Source: Epilithonimonas zeae
Lineage (GTDB): Bacteria; Bacteroidota; Bacteroidia; Flavobacteriales; Weeksellaceae
NCBI RefSeq assembly: GCF_023278365.1
Contig: NZ_CP075338.1
Coordinates: 744,001-808,000, forward strand
DNA: 64,000 nucleotides
Direction: 5' to 3'
Both the position numbers and the translations under genes were made by a program. Of the stretch, positions 23,653 to 39,820 are shown piece after piece. Within the stretch, counting starts at the first letter, position 1, and the number at the start of each line of letters is the position of its first letter. The notes beneath the pieces were generated by a model, which was not told the origin of the DNA, ran no database searches, and saw nothing but the letters and a program-made list of their open reading frames with translations.

Positions 23653-23676
23653 AAAGCCTCTTTTAAAGAGGCTTTT
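23653..23676 (-). terminator. Minus-strand terminator next to the left att copy, probable original tRNA terminator
   Basis: An 11-bp stem (AAAGCCTCTTT with AAAGAGGCTTT) whose T-run reads on the minus strand. The tRNA at 39747-39820 is transcribed on the minus strand. If the element is removed, this hairpin falls directly after the tRNA 3' end, as expected for the native tRNA terminator. Confidence 0.7.
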
Positions 23677-23690
23677 GTGGTCCCACCTGG
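23676..23690. repeat. Left attachment site (15-bp copy of the tRNA 3' end)
   Basis: TGTGGTCCCACCTGG is identical to 39745-39759, which forms the acceptor and T-arm end of the tRNA gene. The rest of the tRNA is absent here. Together the two copies bound a 16-kb segment with a tyrosine recombinase next to the intact tRNA copy. Confidence 0.85.
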
Positions 23691-27328: not shown

Positions 27329-30300
27329 TTATATTAACTTGTATCTCGGCAATCCAATCTCTTTTTCCTGCGGATATGGTTTTCTTTGGGTCATACTTAC
27401 ATCTTCTCTTATTCTATTATAAGCCTCAAATGATTTGTCTTTATCGAGTGTATATCTTGGATCAGGAATGAATGGCATTTTCTGCATTTTCAGAATCGTG
27501 ATAGTTGGAAAATGAAAATCAACCTCGACAATTCCTAAAAGTAAATAACATCCACCTCCCTGAAATGGATACTTACTAAGATTATCAGGAAAATGAGCTG
27601 TATCAAAATACTCTCCTTCATTATCAATCCAAGTCCCAAAGAACATAGCTCCTCTTTTAGTAGGTACGTGTTTTCTTGAAATAAGATAAGCCAGCATTTT
27701 GACTTCTTTTTTGTGATGTTTGGTTAAGTCCTTTGCCATCACGCTTCCTCTGTATTTTGTTTGCAAAAGATCAAATGGACTTACAGAAACAGGAAATCCT
27801 AAAATTTCTATTTCATCAAATGCATCCTCATAGGGATGACGCACAACTTCTGGTAATTTGTATTCTTTTTTAGGCTCATCAAGCAAAGTCAAATGTTTAT
27901 AATTTTGTTTTTCGCCTGCGAGCAAAAATCTGGCTTCTATCAAAAGTTCGTGTTTTGGTTTTCCTGTAAATCTAAAAGCTCCGATGAATATCAAAGTTTG
28001 CAGCGTTTCAAGTCCAATAGAAACTCTTTTAACGAAGTTTTCTAATGATTCATAATCTCCATTAGCATTTCTTTCTTCAGGGATTAAAGTTGCTGTTTTG
28101 CTATCTAAACTTTCGATGTGCATAAATCCCATATATACATCTCTGCCATAAACTGTGGTTTTATACTCACCCTTGTTTACACAAGGATTTAGAATGTTAG
28201 CACCTGACATTCTGGCTTCGTGAATATAGACCTCCGTCCTGTAAAAACCACCACCATTATTAATAGCAGATACCATAAACTCAATGGGATAATTAACTTT
28301 TAAATATAAGCTTTGATAACTCTCTACAGCGTAAGATGCTGAATGTGCTTTACAAAATGAATATCCTGCAAAGGATTCAATCTGGCGATACACTTCTTTT
28401 GATAACTGTTCGGAATGTCCAAGCTTTTTACAGGATTCAAAAAAATGATCCTTAACTTTCTGTAAAGCTGATAGTGAGCGACCTTTGCCACTCATAGCAC
28501 GCCTCAAGACATCACCATCCGACGCCGCTAATCCTCCAAAATGAAGAGCAATCTTTATAACATCTTCCTGATACACCATAATACCATAAGTCTCACCTAG
28601 TTCTTTTTTAAAAACCTCGTGGAAATATTCGAACTTGTCAGGATTATTGTGTCTGAAAATATATTCACGCATCATACCACTTTGTGCCACACCTGGTCTT
28701 ATGATAGATGATGCTGCAACCAACACCTTATAATTATCACATTTTAACCTTCTCAACAATCCACGCATCGCAGGGCTTTCTATGTAAAAACAACCTATTG
28801 TTTTACCTCTGCTCAAATACTCATTACACTTTGATTCATTTTTTGAAATTGACGTATCTCTAATGTCAATCGTAACACCTCTTTTTTCTTCTATAAGCTT
28901 AACTGCATCATTGATTGTACCTAATCCTCTTTGTGACAAAATATCAAATTTCTCAAAGCCAATTTCTTCTGCTACGTGCATATCAAATTGAATAATTGGA
29001 AATCCTTTAGGTGGCATTTCCAGAGCTGTGTAATTGGTAATTGGTTCTTCTGAAATAATGATTCCACAAGCGTGCATACTTCTTTGATTTGGAAACTTTT
29101 CTAATAGTTTTCCATACTTATGAACCATAGCCGAAACCGAATTTATATCGTGAGCTTCTATAGGCTTTGTTGCCAGTTCATCCAGTTCTTCTTTTGGCAG
29201 ACCAAATACTTTACCTACCTCCCTGAATATTGACTTATATTTAAACTCAACATTAGTCCCACAAAAGGCAACGTGATCTTTCCCATATTTATCAAAAATA
29301 TACTGCAAAATAGTATCTCTATCCTGCCAACTCCAATCCAAATCAAAATCAGGTGGAGTTTTGCGATTCAGATTAAGGAACCTTTCAAAATATAAGTCAA
29401 GTTCTAAAGGACAAATATCAGTAATCCCTAGACAATAAGCTATAATACTGTTTGCTCCGCTTCCTCTACCTACGTGCATAAATCCCATTCTGTTACTATA
29501 CTTAACAATATCCCAAGTAATAAGGAAATAGCCTGAAAAATTAAGCATATCAATTACCTTTAACTCTTTTTCCACTCGTTGAATGGCTGATCGGTGACAA
29601 TCAGGATAACGCCTCTTTAAACCTTCATAAGAAAGCTTAGCTAAAAGTTCAAAATCACTTTTTTTGCTACCTGTAAAAAACTTTTTATTTTTCGGTGTTG
29701 AGTAGTCAAATTCAAAATGGCATTGTTCCAAAATCCATTCTGTATTCTTTATGATCTTTGGATATGCCTTGAATTTATTTAATAAATCCTCTGGCTGAAC
29801 AAATACTTCTGAATCTTTACAATAATCAGTTGATTTTAACTTTGAGCCTAATATATTAAGATCAATGGCTCTTAAAATCTTATGCAGATTATAATCCGTT
29901 TTGGTTTTAACTGTAACAGGCTGTAAAATGACCATTTTCGGAATATATACTTTCAATTCCGATTTTACCAAAAGATTTAGCTCTTCAGGTTTGATTCCTA
30001 TATATTCATTACGGTGTAGTTTTTCAGGAAAATCGTTAAGTGGGTATATAACTGTAACATTTGAAAATGATGGATGATATTTTGGAAGTTCTTTACCATC
30101 GCAATTATGTTCTGTTAAAAGTTTGTTGATTTCGCCAATCCCTTTATTCCCTTTAGCAAGACAGATATAAAATAGTTCGTTTTCTTTTCTGATTTCTACA
30201 CCAATAACCGATTTTATATTGGATGCTTTACAAAGTTTGTGAAATTCATAAATGCCTGTAATCGTATTGATGTCTGTTAAGGCCAATATCCTAACATTCA

Positions 30301-30382
30301 ATTCAACAGCCTGCTGAACCAATTCCTGTACGGATATAGTCCCATAACGTAAACTATTGTATGAGTGACAATTTAAAAACAT
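27329..30382 (-). CDS. DNA polymerase III alpha subunit, DnaE2-like
   Basis: A 1017-residue C-family polymerase. It starts with a PHP domain (NCHSYNSLRYGTISVQELVQQAVELNVRILALTD). The catalytic aspartates are visible in PPDFDLDWSWQDRD, and the helix-hairpin-helix and OB-fold regions follow. It is shorter than the about 1100-1200 residues of replicative DnaE, as expected for DnaE2/ImuC-type enzymes used in damage tolerance. It lies 9 bp after dinB on the same strand, so the two form one unit. As cargo it would give inducible translesion synthesis. Confidence 0.88.
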   Translation of the reverse strand: MFLNCHSYNSLRYGTISVQELVQQAVELNVRILALTDINTITGIYEFHKLCKASNIKSVIGVEIRKENELFYICLAKGNKGIGEINKLLTEHNCDGKELPKYHPSFSNVTVIYPLNDFPEKLHRNEYIGIKPEELNLLVKSELKVYIPKMVILQPVTVKTKTDYNLHKILRAIDLNILGSKLKSTDYCKDSEVFVQPEDLLNKFKAYPKIIKNTEWILEQCHFEFDYSTPKNKKFFTGSKKSDFELLAKLSYEGLKRRYPDCHRSAIQRVEKELKVIDMLNFSGYFLITWDIVKYSNRMGFMHVGRGSGANSIIAYCLGITDICPLELDLYFERFLNLNRKTPPDFDLDWSWQDRDTILQYIFDKYGKDHVAFCGTNVEFKYKSIFREVGKVFGLPKEELDELATKPIEAHDINSVSAMVHKYGKLLEKFPNQRSMHACGIIISEEPITNYTALEMPPKGFPIIQFDMHVAEEIGFEKFDILSQRGLGTINDAVKLIEEKRGVTIDIRDTSISKNESKCNEYLSRGKTIGCFYIESPAMRGLLRRLKCDNYKVLVAASSIIRPGVAQSGMMREYIFRHNNPDKFEYFHEVFKKELGETYGIMVYQEDVIKIALHFGGLAASDGDVLRRAMSGKGRSLSALQKVKDHFFESCKKLGHSEQLSKEVYRQIESFAGYSFCKAHSASYAVESYQSLYLKVNYPIEFMVSAINNGGGFYRTEVYIHEARMSGANILNPCVNKGEYKTTVYGRDVYMGFMHIESLDSKTATLIPEERNANGDYESLENFVKRVSIGLETLQTLIFIGAFRFTGKPKHELLIEARFLLAGEKQNYKHLTLLDEPKKEYKLPEVVRHPYEDAFDEIEILGFPVSVSPFDLLQTKYRGSVMAKDLTKHHKKEVKMLAYLISRKHVPTKRGAMFFGTWIDNEGEYFDTAHFPDNLSKYPFQGGGCYLLLGIVEVDFHFPTITILKMQKMPFIPDPRYTLDKDKSFEAYNRIREDVSMTQRKPYPQEKEIGLPRYKLI

Positions 30383-30391
30383 AATTAACTC

Positions 30392-31531
30392 TTATAATAA
30401 GCCAGATGCTCTGCCTACACTTGTATTTCCAAACCTCAATTTCAGTTTATCCATTGTTTGATAGAGGCTGATTAATTCTTCGGTGTCTTCAAACAAATTC
30501 ATCTGATGACAGCCGTGTACCAATCCTGTGAACTTAACACCAATTAATCGAATTCTCATTCTTCGGGAATACAGTTTGTCGAATAAATCTAAAACATACT
30601 TTAACAATGTATGGTCAGCAGATGTGTAAGGTATTCTGCATTGTTTGGTTTCAGTATCAAAATTGGAATATCTTATTTTAACAACTACAACTGATGTAAG
30701 CCATTTTTCACTTCTGAGTTGAAATGCCAATTGTTCAACCATTCCTGATAATATACTTTTGATTCCCTGAATATCAATAGTGTCCTGAGAAAAGGTGTTT
30801 TCTGATGATATGGACTTTCTTTCGGAATAAGGTATAACAGGTGTCTCATCAATGCCATTGGCTTTCTTCCAAAGTTCAGTACCATTTTTTCCAATTAATT
30901 GATGCAACACATCAACAGGTGTTTCAGATAAAGTTTGAATTGTTCGCACGCCAAGCCTTGAAAGCAATTGAAATGTCACATTCCCTACCATAGGAATCTT
31001 TTTGATAGACAATGGATTTAGAAAAGGTTTAATATTCTGTGGAGGGATTTCCAATCTTCCTGTAGGTTTGGATTCACCAGTTCCAATCTTAGAAACGGTT
31101 TTGTTAGTGGATAATGCAAAACTAATGGGTAGACCTGTATCTTTTGTAACAGCACCTGCAATTTCATTTGTCCATTTATAGCAACCAAAAAATTTATCCA
31201 TTCCTGAGAGATCAATATAAAATTCATCAACACTTGCTTTTTCCAATAAAGGTACTTTTTCCTGAATGATTTCTGTAACCGTATGCGACATATTGGAATA
31301 ATATTCCATATCGCCTTTTATAACTTTCGCATCAGGACATAATCTTAGTGCCATTTTAATAGGCATTGCACTTCTGACACCAAAATATCTTGATTCATAG
31401 GAACAGGAAGCCACAACTCCCCTATCACCACCACCAATAATGACAGGAATACCATTCAAACTGGAATTTTTCAGTCTCTCACAAGAGACAAAAAACGTAT
31501 CCAGATCCATATGAACAATTGATTTTTCCAC
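30392..31531 (-). CDS. Y-family DNA polymerase (DinB/Pol IV-like)
   Basis: A 379-residue translesion polymerase. MDLDTFFVSCERL holds the first catalytic Asp and KASVDEFYIDLSGMD the SVDE acidic pair. The helix-hairpin-helix region (IKKIPMVGNVTFQLLSRLGVRTIQTL) and the little-finger domain follow. It is divergent from the S24 repressor gene, with only 61 bp between start codons. A TAATTTTG -7 match on the minus strand (31536-31543) lies directly before the start, so the mRNA may be leaderless. The intact active site points to an active polymerase rather than an ImuB-type dead one. Confidence 0.92.
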   Translation of the reverse strand: MEKSIVHMDLDTFFVSCERLKNSSLNGIPVIIGGGDRGVVASCSYESRYFGVRSAMPIKMALRLCPDAKVIKGDMEYYSNMSHTVTEIIQEKVPLLEKASVDEFYIDLSGMDKFFGCYKWTNEIAGAVTKDTGLPISFALSTNKTVSKIGTGESKPTGRLEIPPQNIKPFLNPLSIKKIPMVGNVTFQLLSRLGVRTIQTLSETPVDVLHQLIGKNGTELWKKANGIDETPVIPYSERKSISSENTFSQDTIDIQGIKSILSGMVEQLAFQLRSEKWLTSVVVVKIRYSNFDTETKQCRIPYTSADHTLLKYVLDLFDKLYSRRMRIRLIGVKFTGLVHGCHQMNLFEDTEELISLYQTMDKLKLRFGNTSVGRASGLL

Positions 31532-31566
31532 GCTTCAAAATTATTACGTTTTGTAGCTTAATTTTG

Positions 31567-31593
31567 TATATTTGTTGCTATAAATTATAGCAA
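31567..31593. promoter_or_regulatory. Promoter and 19-bp palindrome of the S24 repressor/dinB switch
   Basis: TTGCTATAA-A-TTATAGCAA (31575-31593) is a perfect inverted repeat around one central base. It overlaps the A of the repressor start codon and directly follows a -7 match TATATTTG (31567-31574). It lies 44 bp from the dinB start on the other strand. Position and symmetry make it the prime operator candidate for the repressor controlling both directions. Confidence 0.75.
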
Positions 31594-32360
31594 TGTCAAT
31601 TTTATCAGAAAACATCAGGTATTTAAGAGGTAAGCTGAATATGTCACAACAGAAAGTTGCGGATGATTTATCAATTACCAGAGGGAGGTATGGTAAGTAC
31701 GAAGACGGGGCGACAGAGCCTCCGCTTGATATTTTGCTTAAAATCTCCAAATATTACAAAGTCAGTATCGATTTGTTATTAACTGTCAATGTCAGTAAAT
31801 ACTCCATCAATGAGATTATGGAACTTCCCGACAATAGGATTGTTTTACCCATAAGGGTTGATAATGACGGCAACGATCAAATTGAGATTATCCCACAAAA
31901 GACTTCAATGGGCTATTTAAATGGCTATAGTGACCCTGAATACATAGAAAGTCTTGATACAATTTCATTACCATTTCTAAAAGGCGGTAAATTCAGAGCC
32001 TTTCCTGCTGAAGGTGATTCTATGCCGCCCTATAAAGATGGAACTTACATCGTAGGAAAGTATGTCGAAAATCTTTCTGATTTGAAAACAGACAGAACTT
32101 ATGTTTTCATAACAACTAATGATGGTATCAGCTATAAAAGATTTCAGTTCCACGAAGCAGATGGCATTTGGGTCAAAGCAGATAACAGTTTTTATGAGCC
32201 ATATAAAATTCCATTAGCAGAAATCAAAGAAATTTGGGAATTTGCCTGTAGTATTAATACCAAAGAATTAACGAACACTTCAAAAGACAAAAATTCGGAG
32301 ATTTTAGAAATGTTTTTGGAATTAAAAAACGAAATAAGACTATTAAAAAAGCTACATTAA
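31593..32360 (+). CDS. LexA/CI-like self-cleaving repressor (XRE HTH + S24 peptidase)
   Basis: A 255-residue protein. The N-terminal HTH (about 5-62: NIRYLRGKLNMSQQKVADDLSITRGRYGKYEDG) is joined to an S24 peptidase domain. Catalytic Ser143 lies in EGDSMPPYKDGTYIVG and catalytic Lys182 in GISYKRFQF. The expected scissile bond is M106-G107 in KTSMGYLNGYSDPEYIE, where LexA-type proteins usually have Ala-Gly. Cleavage in response to RecA filaments would release the divergent dinB-dnaE genes. Canonical LexA is thought to be missing from many Bacteroidota, so this element may bring its own damage switch. Confidence 0.9.
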   Translation: MSILSENIRYLRGKLNMSQQKVADDLSITRGRYGKYEDGATEPPLDILLKISKYYKVSIDLLLTVNVSKYSINEIMELPDNRIVLPIRVDNDGNDQIEIIPQKTSMGYLNGYSDPEYIESLDTISLPFLKGGKFRAFPAEGDSMPPYKDGTYIVGKYVENLSDLKTDRTYVFITTNDGISYKRFQFHEADGIWVKADNSFYEPYKIPLAEIKEIWEFACSINTKELTNTSKDKNSEILEMFLELKNEIRLLKKLH

Positions 32361-32416: not shown

Positions 32417-33811
32417 ATGCAAAAAATTGACATTGAGATTTTCCAAGCAATTATTGAAAACACTAATTTTAAAACAATTAAGCTTACTAACAAACAAGTG
32501 CATCTTGAAGATAGCATTGATATTGAAATGTATGATAGATCATTCTATTTTGAAAATTGCATATTTACTGGAGGAAGAATTAATTTTAGAAATTACGAAG
32601 AAGGAGATAATCATTCTCAGTCTATACAATTTATAAATTGTACAATCTCAAATGATTTATTCATTAAAGATTGCAAATTATACAAAATAGAGTTTAGTAA
32701 TGTTAATATAAATTCAAACCATTTTCACATATCAACTTTAGATGTAGAGTATCTAAGTATTTCAGGAAGCCCAGAGAAATACAATAATATTAATTCATTA
32801 ATACTTCATAATTTAAATATTCACACACAAATTGCTGATTTGGATTTTAGATTAAATAATATTAATAGTTTTCATGTTAATAACTGTATTTTTATAACTA
32901 TACAAATTAATTCTAATAATATTAAAAGATTACATTTCGATAAACTTGTAAATAAAAATTATTTTCAGTTTTGGAAAAATAATTTAATGGAATATTCAAC
33001 TATAAAAAAGTCAGTTTTAAATGAATTTATAGGCAAAAGTTCAATATATGGACAAGAGTTAAAATTTGAACAAACAAGCTTTAATGAAGTTTGTAGATTG
33101 GATAAAGTTCCATCTAAGTCACAAAGTTCAATTAATTTTATAGAATGTATATTTGAAAAAAGTGTCTTTTTTGATGAAAGCACCTTTTATCAGATAGCTA
33201 CCGAAGGAGTATTTTTCAAAGATATAGTTTCTTTCAACTCAACAACAGTTCACAAAATCAAATTTAAAAGTGTTCATTTTGACAAAATTGCATTTTTTAA
33301 TGGTTTCAAAATAATTTCCCTAAAGTTAGTTGATATTGGAACAATCAGAATTATTAAAAATCAATTATACAAAACAGAAAATAAAGTAGATTTTCTTAAG
33401 TACAATGTTCTTGAACAAAATATTTTATTAAATGATAAAAATATAAGTTTTAATGATAGAGCTATACTCACATTAAATAAAATTTCTAATAATTTTGGAA
33501 GTAATTGGATACAAGGAATATTATTTACAATGTTAGTTAGTTTTTTGGGATTTTTTTTATTACTACTTATAAATAATTTTTCACAAAATAATAGTTATGA
33601 ATTTGTTATTAGTTTGGACAACAATGTACCTTCAGCATCTTTTCAAGAAATACTTGGTGAATGGCTTAAATTTACTTTTTCGCTAGATGTACGAATCTAT
33701 AAAAATTATGAATCGAATGGTTTTTTGTTGCTAACATTCTTTTTATTCAAGATCATTGTCGGATACGGAATTTATCAAACAATTGCAGCTTTTCGGAAAC
33801 ATAGTAAATAA
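32417..33811 (+). CDS. Beta-helix-like protein with two C-terminal membrane segments
   Basis: A 464-residue protein not assigned to a family. Residues 1-310 are short repeating strands with periodic N, F, I and S (FENCIFTGG, FINCTISNDLFIKDCKL, FIECIFEKSVFFDESTF), like degenerate pentapeptide or right-handed beta-helix proteins. Residues 365-385 and 434-456 are membrane helices around a loop of about 48 residues, a pore-like arrangement. It starts 57 bp after the repressor gene on the same strand. A sensor domain joined to a membrane effector is an inference. The next gene follows at 8 bp. Confidence 0.65.
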   Translation: MQKIDIEIFQAIIENTNFKTIKLTNKQVHLEDSIDIEMYDRSFYFENCIFTGGRINFRNYEEGDNHSQSIQFINCTISNDLFIKDCKLYKIEFSNVNINSNHFHISTLDVEYLSISGSPEKYNNINSLILHNLNIHTQIADLDFRLNNINSFHVNNCIFITIQINSNNIKRLHFDKLVNKNYFQFWKNNLMEYSTIKKSVLNEFIGKSSIYGQELKFEQTSFNEVCRLDKVPSKSQSSINFIECIFEKSVFFDESTFYQIATEGVFFKDIVSFNSTTVHKIKFKSVHFDKIAFFNGFKIISLKLVDIGTIRIIKNQLYKTENKVDFLKYNVLEQNILLNDKNISFNDRAILTLNKISNNFGSNWIQGILFTMLVSFLGFFLLLLINNFSQNNSYEFVISLDNNVPSASFQEILGEWLKFTFSLDVRIYKNYESNGFLLLTFFLFKIIVGYGIYQTIAAFRKHSK

Positions 33812-33818
33812 ACATAAA

Positions 33819-34541
33819 ATGAAAATAATAGATTTTGACAAACAAATAAATGCAAATCCATATTTGCTAAATATTTATAATAATATTCCTAAAATTGATT
33901 TTCAGAAAAAATATGATTGGGCTCTCCATTCAGAAAATATCATTAGGGAATTTCCACATTCACAATATTGTAATTTTGATTTAAAATGGCTAGAAATTGT
34001 ACAACGAATTGATAATGTTAATGATTTAATTAAAGAACTTTTTTCAGATTTCATATTACTAAATTTAGTGATTGATCCTGACCCTTTACAAGATGGAATG
34101 AGGAAAACCCCACTTCACTACAAACAGAAGTTTTTGACGGAACAAATATTTTATTGGATTAGAAAAACTGTTGATGAACTAATTTCATTAATATTTGTAT
34201 TAGAATTTTTGAAGCAAAATGGAAATAATTATCCAGAAAAAATAAATACTGATTGTATAGGAAAGCTAATTCAAACTAATGATTTCATACCTGATATAAA
34301 GTCTAAACATCTTAATTTCTTGGTACTAATAAATGATATTTCAAATGCTTACAAACATTCTTTTCACAATTCAGAAACATACTCATTAATAGGAATAAAT
34401 GATCCACTGGCTCATGCATATGGATTTAAATTAAATAATGTTAATAAAGAAGTATTATTTACCGCTCATAAAATTGAAGATATTATTAATTCACTTAATA
34501 TACTAATATGTGATATGATTGACTACATTAAAAAAATATAG
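33819..34541 (+). CDS. Hypothetical helical protein, partner of the beta-helix membrane protein
   Basis: A 240-residue protein with no recognised domain. The ATG at 33819, 7 bp after the previous stop, is preferred to the frame's ATG at 33756, which lies inside the previous gene. It is mostly alpha-helical and soluble. A segment NDISNAYKHSFHNSE loosely recalls HEPN-like helical proteins, but the R-x4-6-H catalytic motif is not present. The tight spacing suggests it works with the preceding membrane protein. Confidence 0.6.
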   Translation: MKIIDFDKQINANPYLLNIYNNIPKIDFQKKYDWALHSENIIREFPHSQYCNFDLKWLEIVQRIDNVNDLIKELFSDFILLNLVIDPDPLQDGMRKTPLHYKQKFLTEQIFYWIRKTVDELISLIFVLEFLKQNGNNYPEKINTDCIGKLIQTNDFIPDIKSKHLNFLVLINDISNAYKHSFHNSETYSLIGINDPLAHAYGFKLNNVNKEVLFTAHKIEDIINSLNILICDMIDYIKKI

Positions 34542-34675: not shown

Positions 34676-36559
34676 TTACTTTAAACTATCTAAATACAAT
34701 TTCGAATTTATATACAATTGTGTTTCGTTAGCCATTCGCCTTCCTTGATTAACATCATTTTTATCACTTCTCAGTTCTTTTATATTTAACATTGTATTAT
34801 CCATCAATTTAACAATAGAACTTTTTAAACTTTTCATTGTTGGATTAATTTGGGATTTTTTAAAAGCATTAAAAATTATTCTATTTTCAAAATCTTTATT
34901 GTCAATTTTTAAATTAATTACTTCATTAGAATTTAGTAGTATTTTAGTTTCAATTGTTCCTAAAATAATATAACCGAATTCATGTGCCTTTTCTCCTTTC
35001 GGCAGAAACCTATCTTCAATGATAATTAACATACCATTTTCTTTTAAAACACTTTTTATAAGAAGTAATAATTCTATCCATTCGTTTGGGTTAATCTCAT
35101 GGAGCACATTGCACAGCACCACAATATCATAGTTGTCTTTAGGAATTTCTGAATCGAGGTAATATAATTTATTAAGAGTAGGAACTTGTAATAATAGAAC
35201 CTCATTTTCTTTATCGGGTTCATATGCTGAATAGATTATCTTTTTTGCAGTATCTCCATCTTCAGATATAGTATATCCAATTCTACCCTTGCCAGCCCCA
35301 AAGTCCAACAATTCTACTGTAGTATTTTTTTGAACGAAATCTTTAAATAATATAAACTGGGGATCATTTGTATTATTTGAAAAAACAACATCTGGATTTT
35401 TGAAACACTGAACCATAAAATTTCCGTATGCCCACTCCGAAATTGAGTTTATAAAAGATGTTAGTTCCATTACATGGTCTTCTAAACCCATAAGTTCGTT
35501 AAAAGAATTACCAGGTGTAGTTCTCGAAGGTGGAATTATAGAATCATTTTTCACCATTAAAATTTCATCAAAATCTAAATGTGATAATATATGAACTGAA
35601 TGTGTTGCAATCCATAGCTGTCCAGATTTGCTTATGATGTTTTTTAACGCACCTATTAATTTAACTTGTGCTTCAGGATGTAAATGTTTTTCAGGCTCAT
35701 CAATTATAATGATACAATCTCTAATGTTAGCTTTAGAGTTTGTCTCTAAGAAAAAAAATAATATCGCATAAGCAAATAGCATTTTTTGTCCTGGGCTTAA
35801 TAAATCTATATTAAAAGGTTCCTCATTCAAATGCAATATACTATTAATAACATTGCCCTGAGTAACTTGACTATATGTAAATTCTTTTCCTAAAAATTGC
35901 TTGACATATTTTTTAAAACATTGGAAAAGCTGAAATGATTTATTTATTTTAATACTTTCTTCAATAATAGAAGGGTTAGTCTTATTTTTTAAATACAAAT
36001 TAAATTCCTCACCAATAATTTCAGTTGAAATTCTTTTAAAATATTCAATTGTTGAAAGATTATTAAATAAGGAAAATTCATTGATAATTACATTCCTATT
36101 TTCATCAAGAAAATCAATATTAATAATATCTTCAAATGTCAACTTACCACTTATGTTATCCTTAATAATCTTTAAATCATCATTATCAACAACCTTTATA
36201 TAAGCTGTACTAAATCTTTTAAAATTCTCTCTAAATGCTGAAAAACCTAAAAAAGATGGGTGTTTTTCAATGTTTTCAGTATCAGTTGTCTGATTAAATT
36301 GAATCCTTAGAGACTCTACATTTTTTTTTTGTCTTCCAATAATTTGTGTTGGTATATTAGTTATAAAATCATTGTAGTATTTATCTGCAGTTATTTCATT
36401 TGCATACTTTTCAACTAATTTTAGGATTCGTGATTTTCCAGCACCATTTTTTCCTACCAAAGCTACAGTTGACCCTAGCGGTTTCTTTGTTAAATCTATT
36501 TCTTTTAAATTAACTTTTTTAGTTTCTGACTTTTCAATTTTTATTTTAGAAATTCTCAT
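34676..36559 (-). CDS. ABC-type ATPase fused to a SAM methyltransferase-like domain
   Basis: A 627-residue protein with two parts. Residues 1-345 are an ABC/RecF-like AAA ATPase: Walker A GKNGAGKS (36-43), a signature-like LLSPGQKM (253-260), Walker B CIIIIDEPEKHLHPEAQ (D287, E288) and an H-loop ATHS (H320), as in OLD-type or SMC-like defence ATPases. Residues about 400-545 look like a class I methyltransferase: motif I LLDFGAGKGRIG (417-428), acidic SAYEPD and YDIVVLCNVLHEINPNEW. OLD proteins carry a TOPRIM nuclease in this position. It stands alone as cargo; a defence role is inferred. Confidence 0.8.
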   Translation of the reverse strand: MRISKIKIEKSETKKVNLKEIDLTKKPLGSTVALVGKNGAGKSRILKLVEKYANEITADKYYNDFITNIPTQIIGRQKKNVESLRIQFNQTTDTENIEKHPSFLGFSAFRENFKRFSTAYIKVVDNDDLKIIKDNISGKLTFEDIINIDFLDENRNVIINEFSLFNNLSTIEYFKRISTEIIGEEFNLYLKNKTNPSIIEESIKINKSFQLFQCFKKYVKQFLGKEFTYSQVTQGNVINSILHLNEEPFNIDLLSPGQKMLFAYAILFFFLETNSKANIRDCIIIIDEPEKHLHPEAQVKLIGALKNIISKSGQLWIATHSVHILSHLDFDEILMVKNDSIIPPSRTTPGNSFNELMGLEDHVMELTSFINSISEWAYGNFMVQCFKNPDVVFSNNTNDPQFILFKDFVQKNTTVELLDFGAGKGRIGYTISEDGDTAKKIIYSAYEPDKENEVLLLQVPTLNKLYYLDSEIPKDNYDIVVLCNVLHEINPNEWIELLLLIKSVLKENGMLIIIEDRFLPKGEKAHEFGYIILGTIETKILLNSNEVINLKIDNKDFENRIIFNAFKKSQINPTMKSLKSSIVKLMDNTMLNIKELRSDKNDVNQGRRMANETQLYINSKLYLDSLK

Positions 36560-36876: not shown

Positions 36877-37251
36877 ATGAAATTTTTTTTTACAATTTCA
36901 GTATTTATTTTTACTGGACTCTTTAATTCTCTAAATGCACAGTATAGAAAACCAAGACAAGGCTGGATTGAGCCAACTAATCAGGAATTTACGATGAAGA
37001 TTCTTGCCGAGAAAGAGGCTAGATACAAAGAAAATGTTAGTCAAGTTGTAGCTCTAAACAAAGAAATAAACCTCCTTATTCGCATTCAATCTAAAAATGG
37101 TTTATCTGAATCTCAACTATCTTACATCAAGTCATATCAGAATGCTATAATTAAGATAAATAATTCCAATTATGATTACGGAAATTCCAATGTAACTCAA
37201 TCTGTGCTAAATTATCTCCAACAATTTTATGATGAAATATATTCTTGGTAA
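36877..37251 (+). CDS. Small secreted hypothetical protein
   Basis: A 124-residue protein with a signal peptide (MKFFFTISVFIFTGLFNSLNAQ). The mature part starts YRKPRQGWIEPTNQEFTMKILAEKEARYKENV and is helical, with one short Q/N/Y-rich tail. No family recognised. It directly follows the candidate structured RNA and may be controlled by it. Confidence 0.65.
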   Translation: MKFFFTISVFIFTGLFNSLNAQYRKPRQGWIEPTNQEFTMKILAEKEARYKENVSQVVALNKEINLLIRIQSKNGLSESQLSYIKSYQNAIIKINNSNYDYGNSNVTQSVLNYLQQFYDEIYSW

Positions 37252-38349: not shown

Positions 38350-39567
38350 TCACCATGCATCGCTTAACTTCCTAGCTGTATCTTCACTCGCATACTTCAC
38401 ATACCCTTGGAAAACACTAAAGTCTTCGTGACCTGTAATCTGCATAATTTCAAGTGGGTCTAGCCCCTTCTTCAAACATTCTATTATAAAAAATCTTCTA
38501 CCATAATGAAATGTGATCCATTGATACAACGGTTTTTTGATAGCTTCTATATCACCCTTATAATTTTTCTGGTTAATTAGTGTTACCTTATTTACCTCAG
38601 CTTTTATTAGAATCTTTGTAAGGTGCTTATTGATAGTTTGATTAGTAAAACTTTTGCCAACCCCATAAAGATTATGAAATTCTTTAATGTACAATATAGC
38701 CCTATCTGACATAGGTATAATTTCAGGTGTATTTTTCTTTATATTTCTAAAATGATATTTCCCGTCAATTATTTGTTCATAATTAATCAATGAAACGTCT
38801 GAATATCGAAGACCTGTTAAACAGCTGATACAGAACAATCTTCGACTTATGTCCAAATTAATATCATTGGACAAATCAACATTTAATACTTTATCGAAAT
38901 CTTCCTCCCTAAAATCTACAAATTGACCCTTCTCATGCTCCCTTGTTAACATCTCAAAAATTCTATTTTTATGATAATGTCTATCATAGGTAAATTTTAA
39001 GAAAGCTTTCATATTCTTGATCTGCTTTGATCTTGTATTAGACTTCTGCTTACAATCTATTTTTAAATAGTTAATAAAACCATCAAAGAAACTTAAATCC
39101 AAATCATCAAATGATAAATCGCTTCTTTGCGTAGTACTTGAAAAGGATTTAAGATGATTTCTAAGCGTAGTGTATGCTTTTATTGTACCTTCTTTAAAGC
39201 TGCTTCTTTTTAATTCTATGAATTTTTCAAGAGTTTTATCAACTGTAAGATCATTTTCAGAGTTTTCAAATTTGCCTGTTAGAAAAGATTTTATCTCTCT
39301 AAAAAATCTCTCACTATTGGATTTATCAAATTCTACAAAATTTTTTGTATACAATGAAAGTATTTTAGACTCAATTGTATTAAGTATCTTATTTAAATTA
39401 AATGAATTTGCCATACTTGGCTTTGCTCGCATATTGTTTCTATTCCAGTGCTTACAACCAATTTTTTGTTGTGTGGAATATTTGGCTCTCTTTCCATTGA
39501 GACTGATAGCAACCAAAATCAGTGATTCTGAAGCTTTTGGTTCTTTTAAATAGAAATTAATTTTCAT
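38350..39567 (-). CDS. Tyrosine recombinase (integrase) of the element
   Basis: A 405-residue phage-type integrase of the Bacteroidota kind. The N-terminal part is an arm-binding and SAM-like core-binding region (TVDKTLEKFIELKRSSFKEGTIKAYTTLRNHLKSF). Catalytic residues are seen in order: Arg in SCLTGLRYSD, H-x-x-R in FHYGRRFFI, His in QITGHEDF and the nucleophile Tyr in QGYVKYA. I place the start at 39567, giving MKINFYLKEPKASESLILVAISLNG; the frame opens a few codons earlier. It reads away from the tRNA 180 bp away and probably catalyses insertion there. Confidence 0.93.
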   Translation of the reverse strand: MKINFYLKEPKASESLILVAISLNGKRAKYSTQQKIGCKHWNRNNMRAKPSMANSFNLNKILNTIESKILSLYTKNFVEFDKSNSERFFREIKSFLTGKFENSENDLTVDKTLEKFIELKRSSFKEGTIKAYTTLRNHLKSFSSTTQRSDLSFDDLDLSFFDGFINYLKIDCKQKSNTRSKQIKNMKAFLKFTYDRHYHKNRIFEMLTREHEKGQFVDFREEDFDKVLNVDLSNDINLDISRRLFCISCLTGLRYSDVSLINYEQIIDGKYHFRNIKKNTPEIIPMSDRAILYIKEFHNLYGVGKSFTNQTINKHLTKILIKAEVNKVTLINQKNYKGDIEAIKKPLYQWITFHYGRRFFIIECLKKGLDPLEIMQITGHEDFSVFQGYVKYASEDTARKLSDAW

Positions 39568-39581
39568 AATAGTACTATTTG

Positions 39582-39611
39582 GTGACACTTTATTTTACTG
39601 CGTGGACACTT
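39582..39611. promoter_or_regulatory. Repeats upstream of the integrase gene, candidate arm or operator sites
   Basis: GTGACACTT (39582-39590) and GTGGACACTT (39602-39611) are near-direct repeats 20 bp apart, just upstream of the integrase start and between it and the tRNA. They may be arm-type integrase sites or autoregulatory sites. Confidence 0.4.
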
Positions 39612-39703: not shown

Positions 39704-39744
39704 GTTCAGCTATGTTTAGTCAATTTTAACTAAGTTTAGCTTTA

Positions 39745-39759
39745 TGTGGTCCCACCTGG
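39745..39759. repeat. Right attachment site inside the tRNA 3' end
   Basis: TGTGGTCCCACCTGG, identical to 23676-23690. It covers the acceptor 3' strand and part of the T-arm of the tRNA, the classic target of tyrosine recombinases. Confidence 0.85.
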
Positions 39760-39820
39760 GCTCGAACCAGGGACCACCTGATTATGAGTCAGGTGCTCTA
39801 ACCAACTGAGCTATAGGACC
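39747..39820 (-). tRNA. tRNA with CAU anticodon (elongator Met or Ile2)
   Basis: A 74-nt cloverleaf on the minus strand. The acceptor stem GGTCCTA pairs with TGGGACC, the D-arm is AGCTCAGTTGGTTAGAGC, the anticodon arm CCTGACTCATAATCAGG has CAU, and the T-arm holds GGTTCGAGCC. CCA is not encoded. CAU could be elongator Met or lysidine-modified Ile2; the GACTCATAATC anticodon loop recalls E. coli Ile2, but I cannot decide. It is the intact copy beside the element. Confidence 0.95.

Follow-up and report, generated by a model that had tools for sequence, protein, structure and literature searches.

A candidate one-gene immune module that fuses an ABC ATPase to a methyltransferase on an integrative element of Epilithonimonas zeae

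What might an ATPase of a defense-associated clade govern when the domain fused to it is a methyltransferase? ATPases of the OLD/PtuA/AriA clade switch nucleases (TOPRIM, HNH). The locus considered here, within a 64,000-nucleotide stretch of Epilithonimonas zeae (contig NZ_CP075338.1; hereafter the window), encodes an ATPase of this clade and a methyltransferase in one intact gene. An earlier note, made from the letters alone, placed the gene at 34676-36559, which is borne out, and the strand is minus. We suggest, at about even odds (roughly 0.5), that the product is a one-gene immune-type module in the style of PARIS, OLD, and Septu, the effector of which would be a conditional methyltransferase acting on a non-DNA target. 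The parts of the gene, in window coordinates, are:

34676..36559, minus strand: ABC ATPase-methyltransferase fusion gene, 627 aa in one open frame
35528..36559, minus strand: ATPase half, residues 1-344 (Pfam AAA_21, PADLOC PtuA/AriA, motifs)
35945..36394, minus strand: hypervariable insert, residues 56-205, candidate trigger-recognition region with the lowest identity of six segments
34679..35365, minus strand: class I SAM methyltransferase core and C-terminal helical tail, residues 399-627

The fusion gene is a single-gene unit because its downstream neighbor (33756-34541) is convergent and its upstream neighbor (36877-37251, 317 bp away) is divergent; its description as a stand-alone cargo gene holds. 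A chance fusion or an assembly error was ruled out, given that the fusion recurs in eight members on separate contigs, and a two-gene system with 33756-34541 was ruled out, given that, by eye, the window neighbors are absent at every relative's locus. A possible two-gene unit lies at 32417-34541, where a 261-aa frame that has no Pfam match is overlapped by the gene for a pentapeptide-repeat-like protein whose C-terminal part appears to hold membrane segments.

The motifs and profile matches of the N-terminal half agree with its proposed assignment to the OLD/RecF-type defense ATPases. It carries Walker A GKNGAGKS (residues 36-43), the signature LSPGQ (254-258), Walker B IIDEPEKHLHPEA (285-288) with its D-E pair, and the H-loop ATHS (318-321), and it exceeds the Pfam cut-offs for AAA_21 (E 1.8e-14) and AAA_15 (1.6e-8). 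The best PADLOC matches are PtuA, AriA, AbiLi, NsnB, Old, and GajA, with PtuA (1.8e-19) the best single match, next to AriA at 3.1e-19, Old at 3.4e-15, GajA at 6e-15, and mad3 at 8e-13. With these motifs and best matches, the half belongs to the OLD/PtuA/AriA clade of ABC ATPases. Among relatives introduced below, the ATPase half of L083 has the candidate PDC-M01A as its top PADLOC match (1.3e-16), and that of L084 matches AriA at 1.9e-20.

The C-terminal half is a methyltransferase where a TOPRIM nuclease might have been expected, as had been proposed from motif I and a subsequent acidic residue. These are LDFGAGKGR (418-426) and E447, followed by motif IV CNVLHEI (483-489) and IEDRFLPKGE (514-523); the core occupies about residues 399-570, with the helical tail behind it. 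In the window protein the Pfam model MTS barely exceeds its cut-off (5.2e-5; 23.4 vs. 23 bits) and seven more methyltransferase models (8.4e-5 to 0.073) each fall below their own, all within residues 386-522, and no Pfam TOPRIM model is found in the protein at E up to 1. The relatives give clearer calls: Methyltransf_23 is above cut-off in L001 (2.8e-10), L002 (1.6e-8), and L003 (5.5e-8) and slightly under it in L084 (25.8 vs. 27 bits), and L083 has a Pfam methyltransferase call above cut-off at 1.4e-7. A separate structure comparison of this half, as the earlier note had advised, found a methyltransferase fold. The AlphaFold model (mean pLDDT 78, pTM 0.77) has blocks of residues 71-170 at pLDDT 84-97, and its first 48 residues, the linker, are mostly at pLDDT <50. 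The best 50 of its 1560 PDB matches are all SAM-dependent methyltransferases or cyclopropane-fatty-acid synthases (two Rv2258c entries we take to belong to this class), at modest TM-scores of ≤0.60 by target. Motif I, the acidic residue after strand 2, and the Rossmann-type fold place the half among the class I SAM methyltransferases.

As to the substrate, neither the PDB matches (best 50 of 1560) nor a viral structure library points to a single one. The former lean toward small-molecule N- and O-methyltransferases and also include the tRNA m3C enzyme METTL6 and cyclopropane synthases. A catalytic histidine near the place of motif IV in O-methyltransferases is suggested by mutants named in PDB titles (Plu4895 H229N), and H487 is a candidate equivalent. 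The lean toward small molecules in these best 50 of 1560 would also suit a metabolic or resistance role, in which the protein is a resistance or stress enzyme. Its ATPase would then spend ATP on gating a small-molecule methyltransferase, or on bringing it substrate, so that an antibiotic or toxic metabolite is inactivated; a sporadic, mobile, single-gene distribution would fit such useful cargo as well. We consider this unlikely, given that defense ATPases score far above the transporter and ABC-F models (1.6e-7 or weaker against the window protein, among the matches listed), that no biosynthetic cluster is seen by eye and no neighbor gene is common to the window and any relative, and that the fast-evolving insert described below fits an arms race better.

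DNA bases are an unlikely target. A motif IV of the form [DNS]PP[YFW], or PCQ, is the mark of DNA base methyltransferases, and [DNS]PP[YFW], its NIP variant, and PCQ are found in none of the eight members, which disfavors a DNA base methyltransferase of the kind found in restriction-modification, BREX, or DISARM. A DNA modification enzyme was therefore rejected as a candidate. The corresponding reading of the whole protein, in which an ATPase accompanies DNA modification of the self-marking or restriction type, draws on a weak PADLOC match of the C-terminal half to the MADS component mad2 (4e-6 in L002, about 3e-5 in L001, L003, and L083, 0.0053 in the window, none in L084), which is the only PADLOC model that the C-terminal halves match when searched alone. 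With the motifs missing and no restriction gene visible by eye beside the window copy or the relatives' copies, we regard it as very improbable. In a phylum search with the C-terminal half only, 23 of 394 genomes besides its own had matches, none stronger than E 2.9e-8. The open frames concerned measure 191-348 aa, with one exception of 1298 aa (L034); the sole such locus inspected, L028, is an unfused methyltransferase.

The fusion family has eight members including that of the window, with which the seven others share about 26-59% identity; their hosts are Flavobacterium, a Chitinophagaceae MAG, and an HP1-like prophage contig. A scan of a genome collection gave five loci. Three hold full-length relatives that are 55-58% identical (L001 in Flavobacterium gelidilacus, L002 in F. 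zhairuonense, and L003 in the Chitinophagaceae MAG), and in the other two (L004, L005) the match is confined to the ATPase. In the Flavobacterium genus group, 5 of 348 genomes match at E 1e-20 or better, two of them being L001 and L002 again (by identical coordinates and scores) and three being new (G888 at 37%, G1016 at 31%, and G940 at 32% over residues 213-626). A single in-frame TAA divides the G888 copy (L081:8001-9968) into two frames, of 179 and 470 aa. Viral contigs searched with a profile gave 16 loci, among which only L084 is full length, with 29% identity to the window protein over residues 192-627 and 44% to L083; the other 15 match at most residues 144-389. Apart from the own genome, no further full-length member was found in 59 relatives, 395 genomes of the order, and 395 plus 296 of the phylum (overlapping samples, in most of which scoring was limited to the best few candidates per genome; the 296 were scanned with a broader profile). 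Neither 50,697 phage records nor 72,556 plasmids yielded a full-length member, the plasmids giving partial matches only. The window and L084 proteins have zero matches among the phage records, and a DNA search of E. coli genomes with L084 likewise gave zero. L083 matched 18 phage records, mostly lambda Ea59, over ≤36% of its length; the ATPase half of this member (gene at L083:7998-9923) is 26% identical to Ea59 over residues 105-333 (E ~1e-6). The family is thus sporadic, scattered, and single-gene in its distribution, and the fusion persists down to about 26-28% identity.

Across this range, the catalytic parts of both halves are kept. All eight members have Walker A G-x-N-G-x-G-K-S, the signature S-x-G, Walker B D-E-P-E, the H-loop histidine, motif I L-D-F/Y-G-x-G-x-G-R, motif IV N-V-x-H-E-I, and the E-D-x4-G-E element, counting the split member over its two frames (Walker A in the first, the other motifs in the second). 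After strand 2, all seven alignment rows have an acidic residue (E or D), as does L084 (D, read by eye). H487, E488, E515, and D516 do not vary across the seven rows, and their motifs are present in 8/8 members. The retention of motif I and of the acidic residue could also be expected if the methyltransferase half were a SAM-binding sensor and the ATPase fired when a phage SAM-degrading enzyme lowers SAM, and phages do carry SAM-cleaving enzymes. Such a SAM-depletion alarm seems to us quite unlikely, because the four invariant residues probably exceed what SAM binding alone needs, and the protein would then be left with no recognizable effector.

The insert at residues 56-205 evolves differently. 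It is the least conserved of six segments in all 10 pairs examined (of 21 possible), and between L082 and L083 it stands at 58% vs. 85-95% for the other segments. In none of the 21 pairs of the seven intact members is the ATPase half more conserved than the methyltransferase half, although the margin is just 0.2 points in the window/L001 pair. For L082/L083, the one unsaturated pair (most pairs are too diverged), dN/dS is about 0.21 in the ATPase half and about 0.10 in the methyltransferase half, and so both are under purifying selection in that pair. Its fast evolution makes the insert a candidate recognition region, and a fast insert next to conserved catalytic parts is what may be expected of a diversifying sensor wired to a fixed effector.

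How, then, does the fusion protein relate to known systems? In PARIS, the AriA ATPase, of the same clade, is a sensor that holds and releases a separate TOPRIM tRNA nuclease effector, to which it is sometimes fused (PMC12409363); the fusion protein would share this plan, but its effector is a class I methyltransferase, and no TOPRIM is found in the protein or among the scanned window neighbors. In OLD proteins, TOPRIM is fused to the ATPase (PMC10568477). OLD nucleases (P2 Old and GajA of Gabija) thus resemble the fusion protein in having an N-terminal ABC ATPase and a C-terminal effector in one chain, whereas the latter has a methyltransferase and no TOPRIM at its C terminus, and no GajB-like helicase gene is seen beside it. 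PtuA of Septu and of the retron Ec78 PtuA-PtuB pair is the top match of the window ATPase half; however, a methyltransferase is fused in place of an HNH partner, no HNH model was found in the scanned window neighbors, and none was seen in the relatives' neighboring frames by eye (some also scanned by model). MADS has an ABC ATPase (mad3) and a methyltransferase (mad2) to which the two halves show weak matches; its components are separate proteins of a multi-gene system, whereas the fusion is a single gene and scores 39.4 bits vs. an NCBIfam cut-off of 420 for MAD3. Since searches revealed neither a TOPRIM or HNH domain nor a DNA-methyltransferase motif IV, the protein is not OLD, PARIS, Septu, or classical restriction-modification. 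In agreement with the earlier note, which knew of no defense system with this exact fusion, no model among the matches listed from PADLOC, NCBIfam, Pfam, and PHROGs spans both halves (whole-protein matches being the best 25 of 112 families in PADLOC and the best 25 of 85 in NCBIfam). By title or abstract start, no earlier description of the fusion was found in the literature searched, and a prior note is possible.

Unfused ATPases offer a further comparison. In the 296-genome phylum sample, five of six are followed by a PtuB-like HNH gene (four of the five cases come from one genus, and the two scored by model lie above the TIGR02646 cut-off and below that of PtuB), and the sixth, L099, by another gene. 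The effector slot thus appears exchangeable. Given that PARIS and OLD ATPases govern TOPRIM domains and that unfused ATPases adjoin PtuB-like genes, the same switch with another effector is the simplest reading. We infer sensing, gating or activation, toxicity, and defense as the activities of the fusion protein, as follows. The ABC ATPase half would sense an invader or an invader protein through its fast-evolving insert and change state with ATP; this change would release or activate the fused methyltransferase, which might then modify a target other than a DNA base (tRNA or rRNA, a protein of translation, or a small metabolite), and the methylation would halt growth or phage production. The full-length AlphaFold model is poor (mean pLDDT 50.8), so the relative placement of the halves cannot be derived from it, and it gives the coupling of sensor and effector no structural support. 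More tentatively, at somewhat less than even odds, the family may represent an immune effector of a new class, in which an ATPase gates a methyltransferase and infection is blocked via methylation of a non-DNA target, with methylation as weapon rather than self-mark. If true, a defense protein would stop infection by adding methyl groups and not by cutting, a conserved ATPase switching a methyltransferase would extend the range of effectors, and the target of a methylation event able to stop phage growth would be new biology.

The surroundings of the relatives bear on the defense reading in both directions. Their neighbor genes were named by reading translations, except for the L083 integrase, and few were scanned by model. 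The L001 copy adjoins dnaK and an L-serine dehydratase-like gene; L002, a 136-aa frame and a transglutaminase-like gene; L003, a 224-aa frame and an aldehyde-dehydrogenase-like gene, with the contig ending 0.5 to 1.3 kb past the gene; and L082, a methylmalonyl-CoA-mutase-like gene. The L081 (G888) copy is closely flanked by uvrB-like and mscS-like genes, and L083 has a phage-type integrase gene about 2.2 kb from the fusion gene. The prophage copy lies beside HP1-type baseplate genes (L084:2991-6978) in a cargo block of a bPH-SHOCT gene, the fusion gene, a TacA-like antitoxin, and a GNAT toxin-like gene, about 0.7 kb from this toxin-antitoxin-like pair, and a malic-enzyme gene lies at the contig end. 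Among relatives, only L082 and L083 have neighbors in common (a 137-aa HTH gene, an ~105-aa gene, and small repeated genes). Co-occurrence with defense genes, which the earlier note had proposed as a check, was not seen by eye within up to 8 kb on each side in five of the seven other members, and this absence of clustering (mostly from neighbors read by eye) counts against the defense reading. Housekeeping surroundings, which that note had named as a point against it, are partly what is found: around five of the seven others, the neighbors look to the eye like housekeeping or hypothetical genes. Yet the distribution is sporadic, for which reason a housekeeping role is disfavored, and two copies, those of the window and the prophage, lie on clear mobile elements. 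The scattered and unrelated gene positions speak for horizontal movement. For the F. gelidilacus copy at dnaK, no clean empty site was found in 22 loci (one being its own); both relatives with sdaA in reach carry another gene between, so the dnaK interval is simply variable. At uvrB, mscS lies within 1.5 kb in 0/22 loci (one being its own).

In the window, the fusion gene is the single-gene cargo of a 16-kb element integrated in tRNA-Met, bounded as follows:

38350..39588, minus strand: tyrosine integrase of the element (Pfam Phage_integrase 5.7e-9, Phage_int_SAM_5 3.8e-11, PHROG integrase 9.3e-24)
39745..39759: attachment-site copy at the 3' end of tRNA-Met, 15-bp exact repeat
39746-39820, minus strand: tRNA-Met
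23676..23690: second attachment-site copy at the far end of the element, 15-bp exact repeat

At tRNA-Met, 21 loci from relatives were compared. That of G017 (L043) has the empty site, in which window position 39739 joins 23693 directly; L046 and L062 have short matches only to the far flank, and the remaining loci have none. The one empty site confirms the integrative element that had been proposed. The copies on this element and on a prophage contig could indicate a regulator or maintenance factor of mobile elements themselves. This, too, has a low probability in our view, given that no element genes are seen by eye around the copy in five of the seven other members and that the window integrase has zero matches at E 1e-30 in 22 other genomes of the genus.

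The same element carries, at 27329-32360, genes for a PolIII-alpha-like polymerase, a Y-family polymerase, and an HTH-S24 (LexA-like) repressor, apparently an SOS-mutagenesis cassette. Extra partial copies of the tRNA-Met end lie about 49 kb off in G016 and about 9 kb off in G008, two genomes of the genus, on the same contig as the tRNA, and tRNA-Met 39746-39820 looks like an insertion hotspot. A second integrase, 31% identical, is encoded in the same genome (G000 contig 1, 3839633-3840835) and adjoins tRNA-like matches at 3839186-3839252 and 3839378-3839444.
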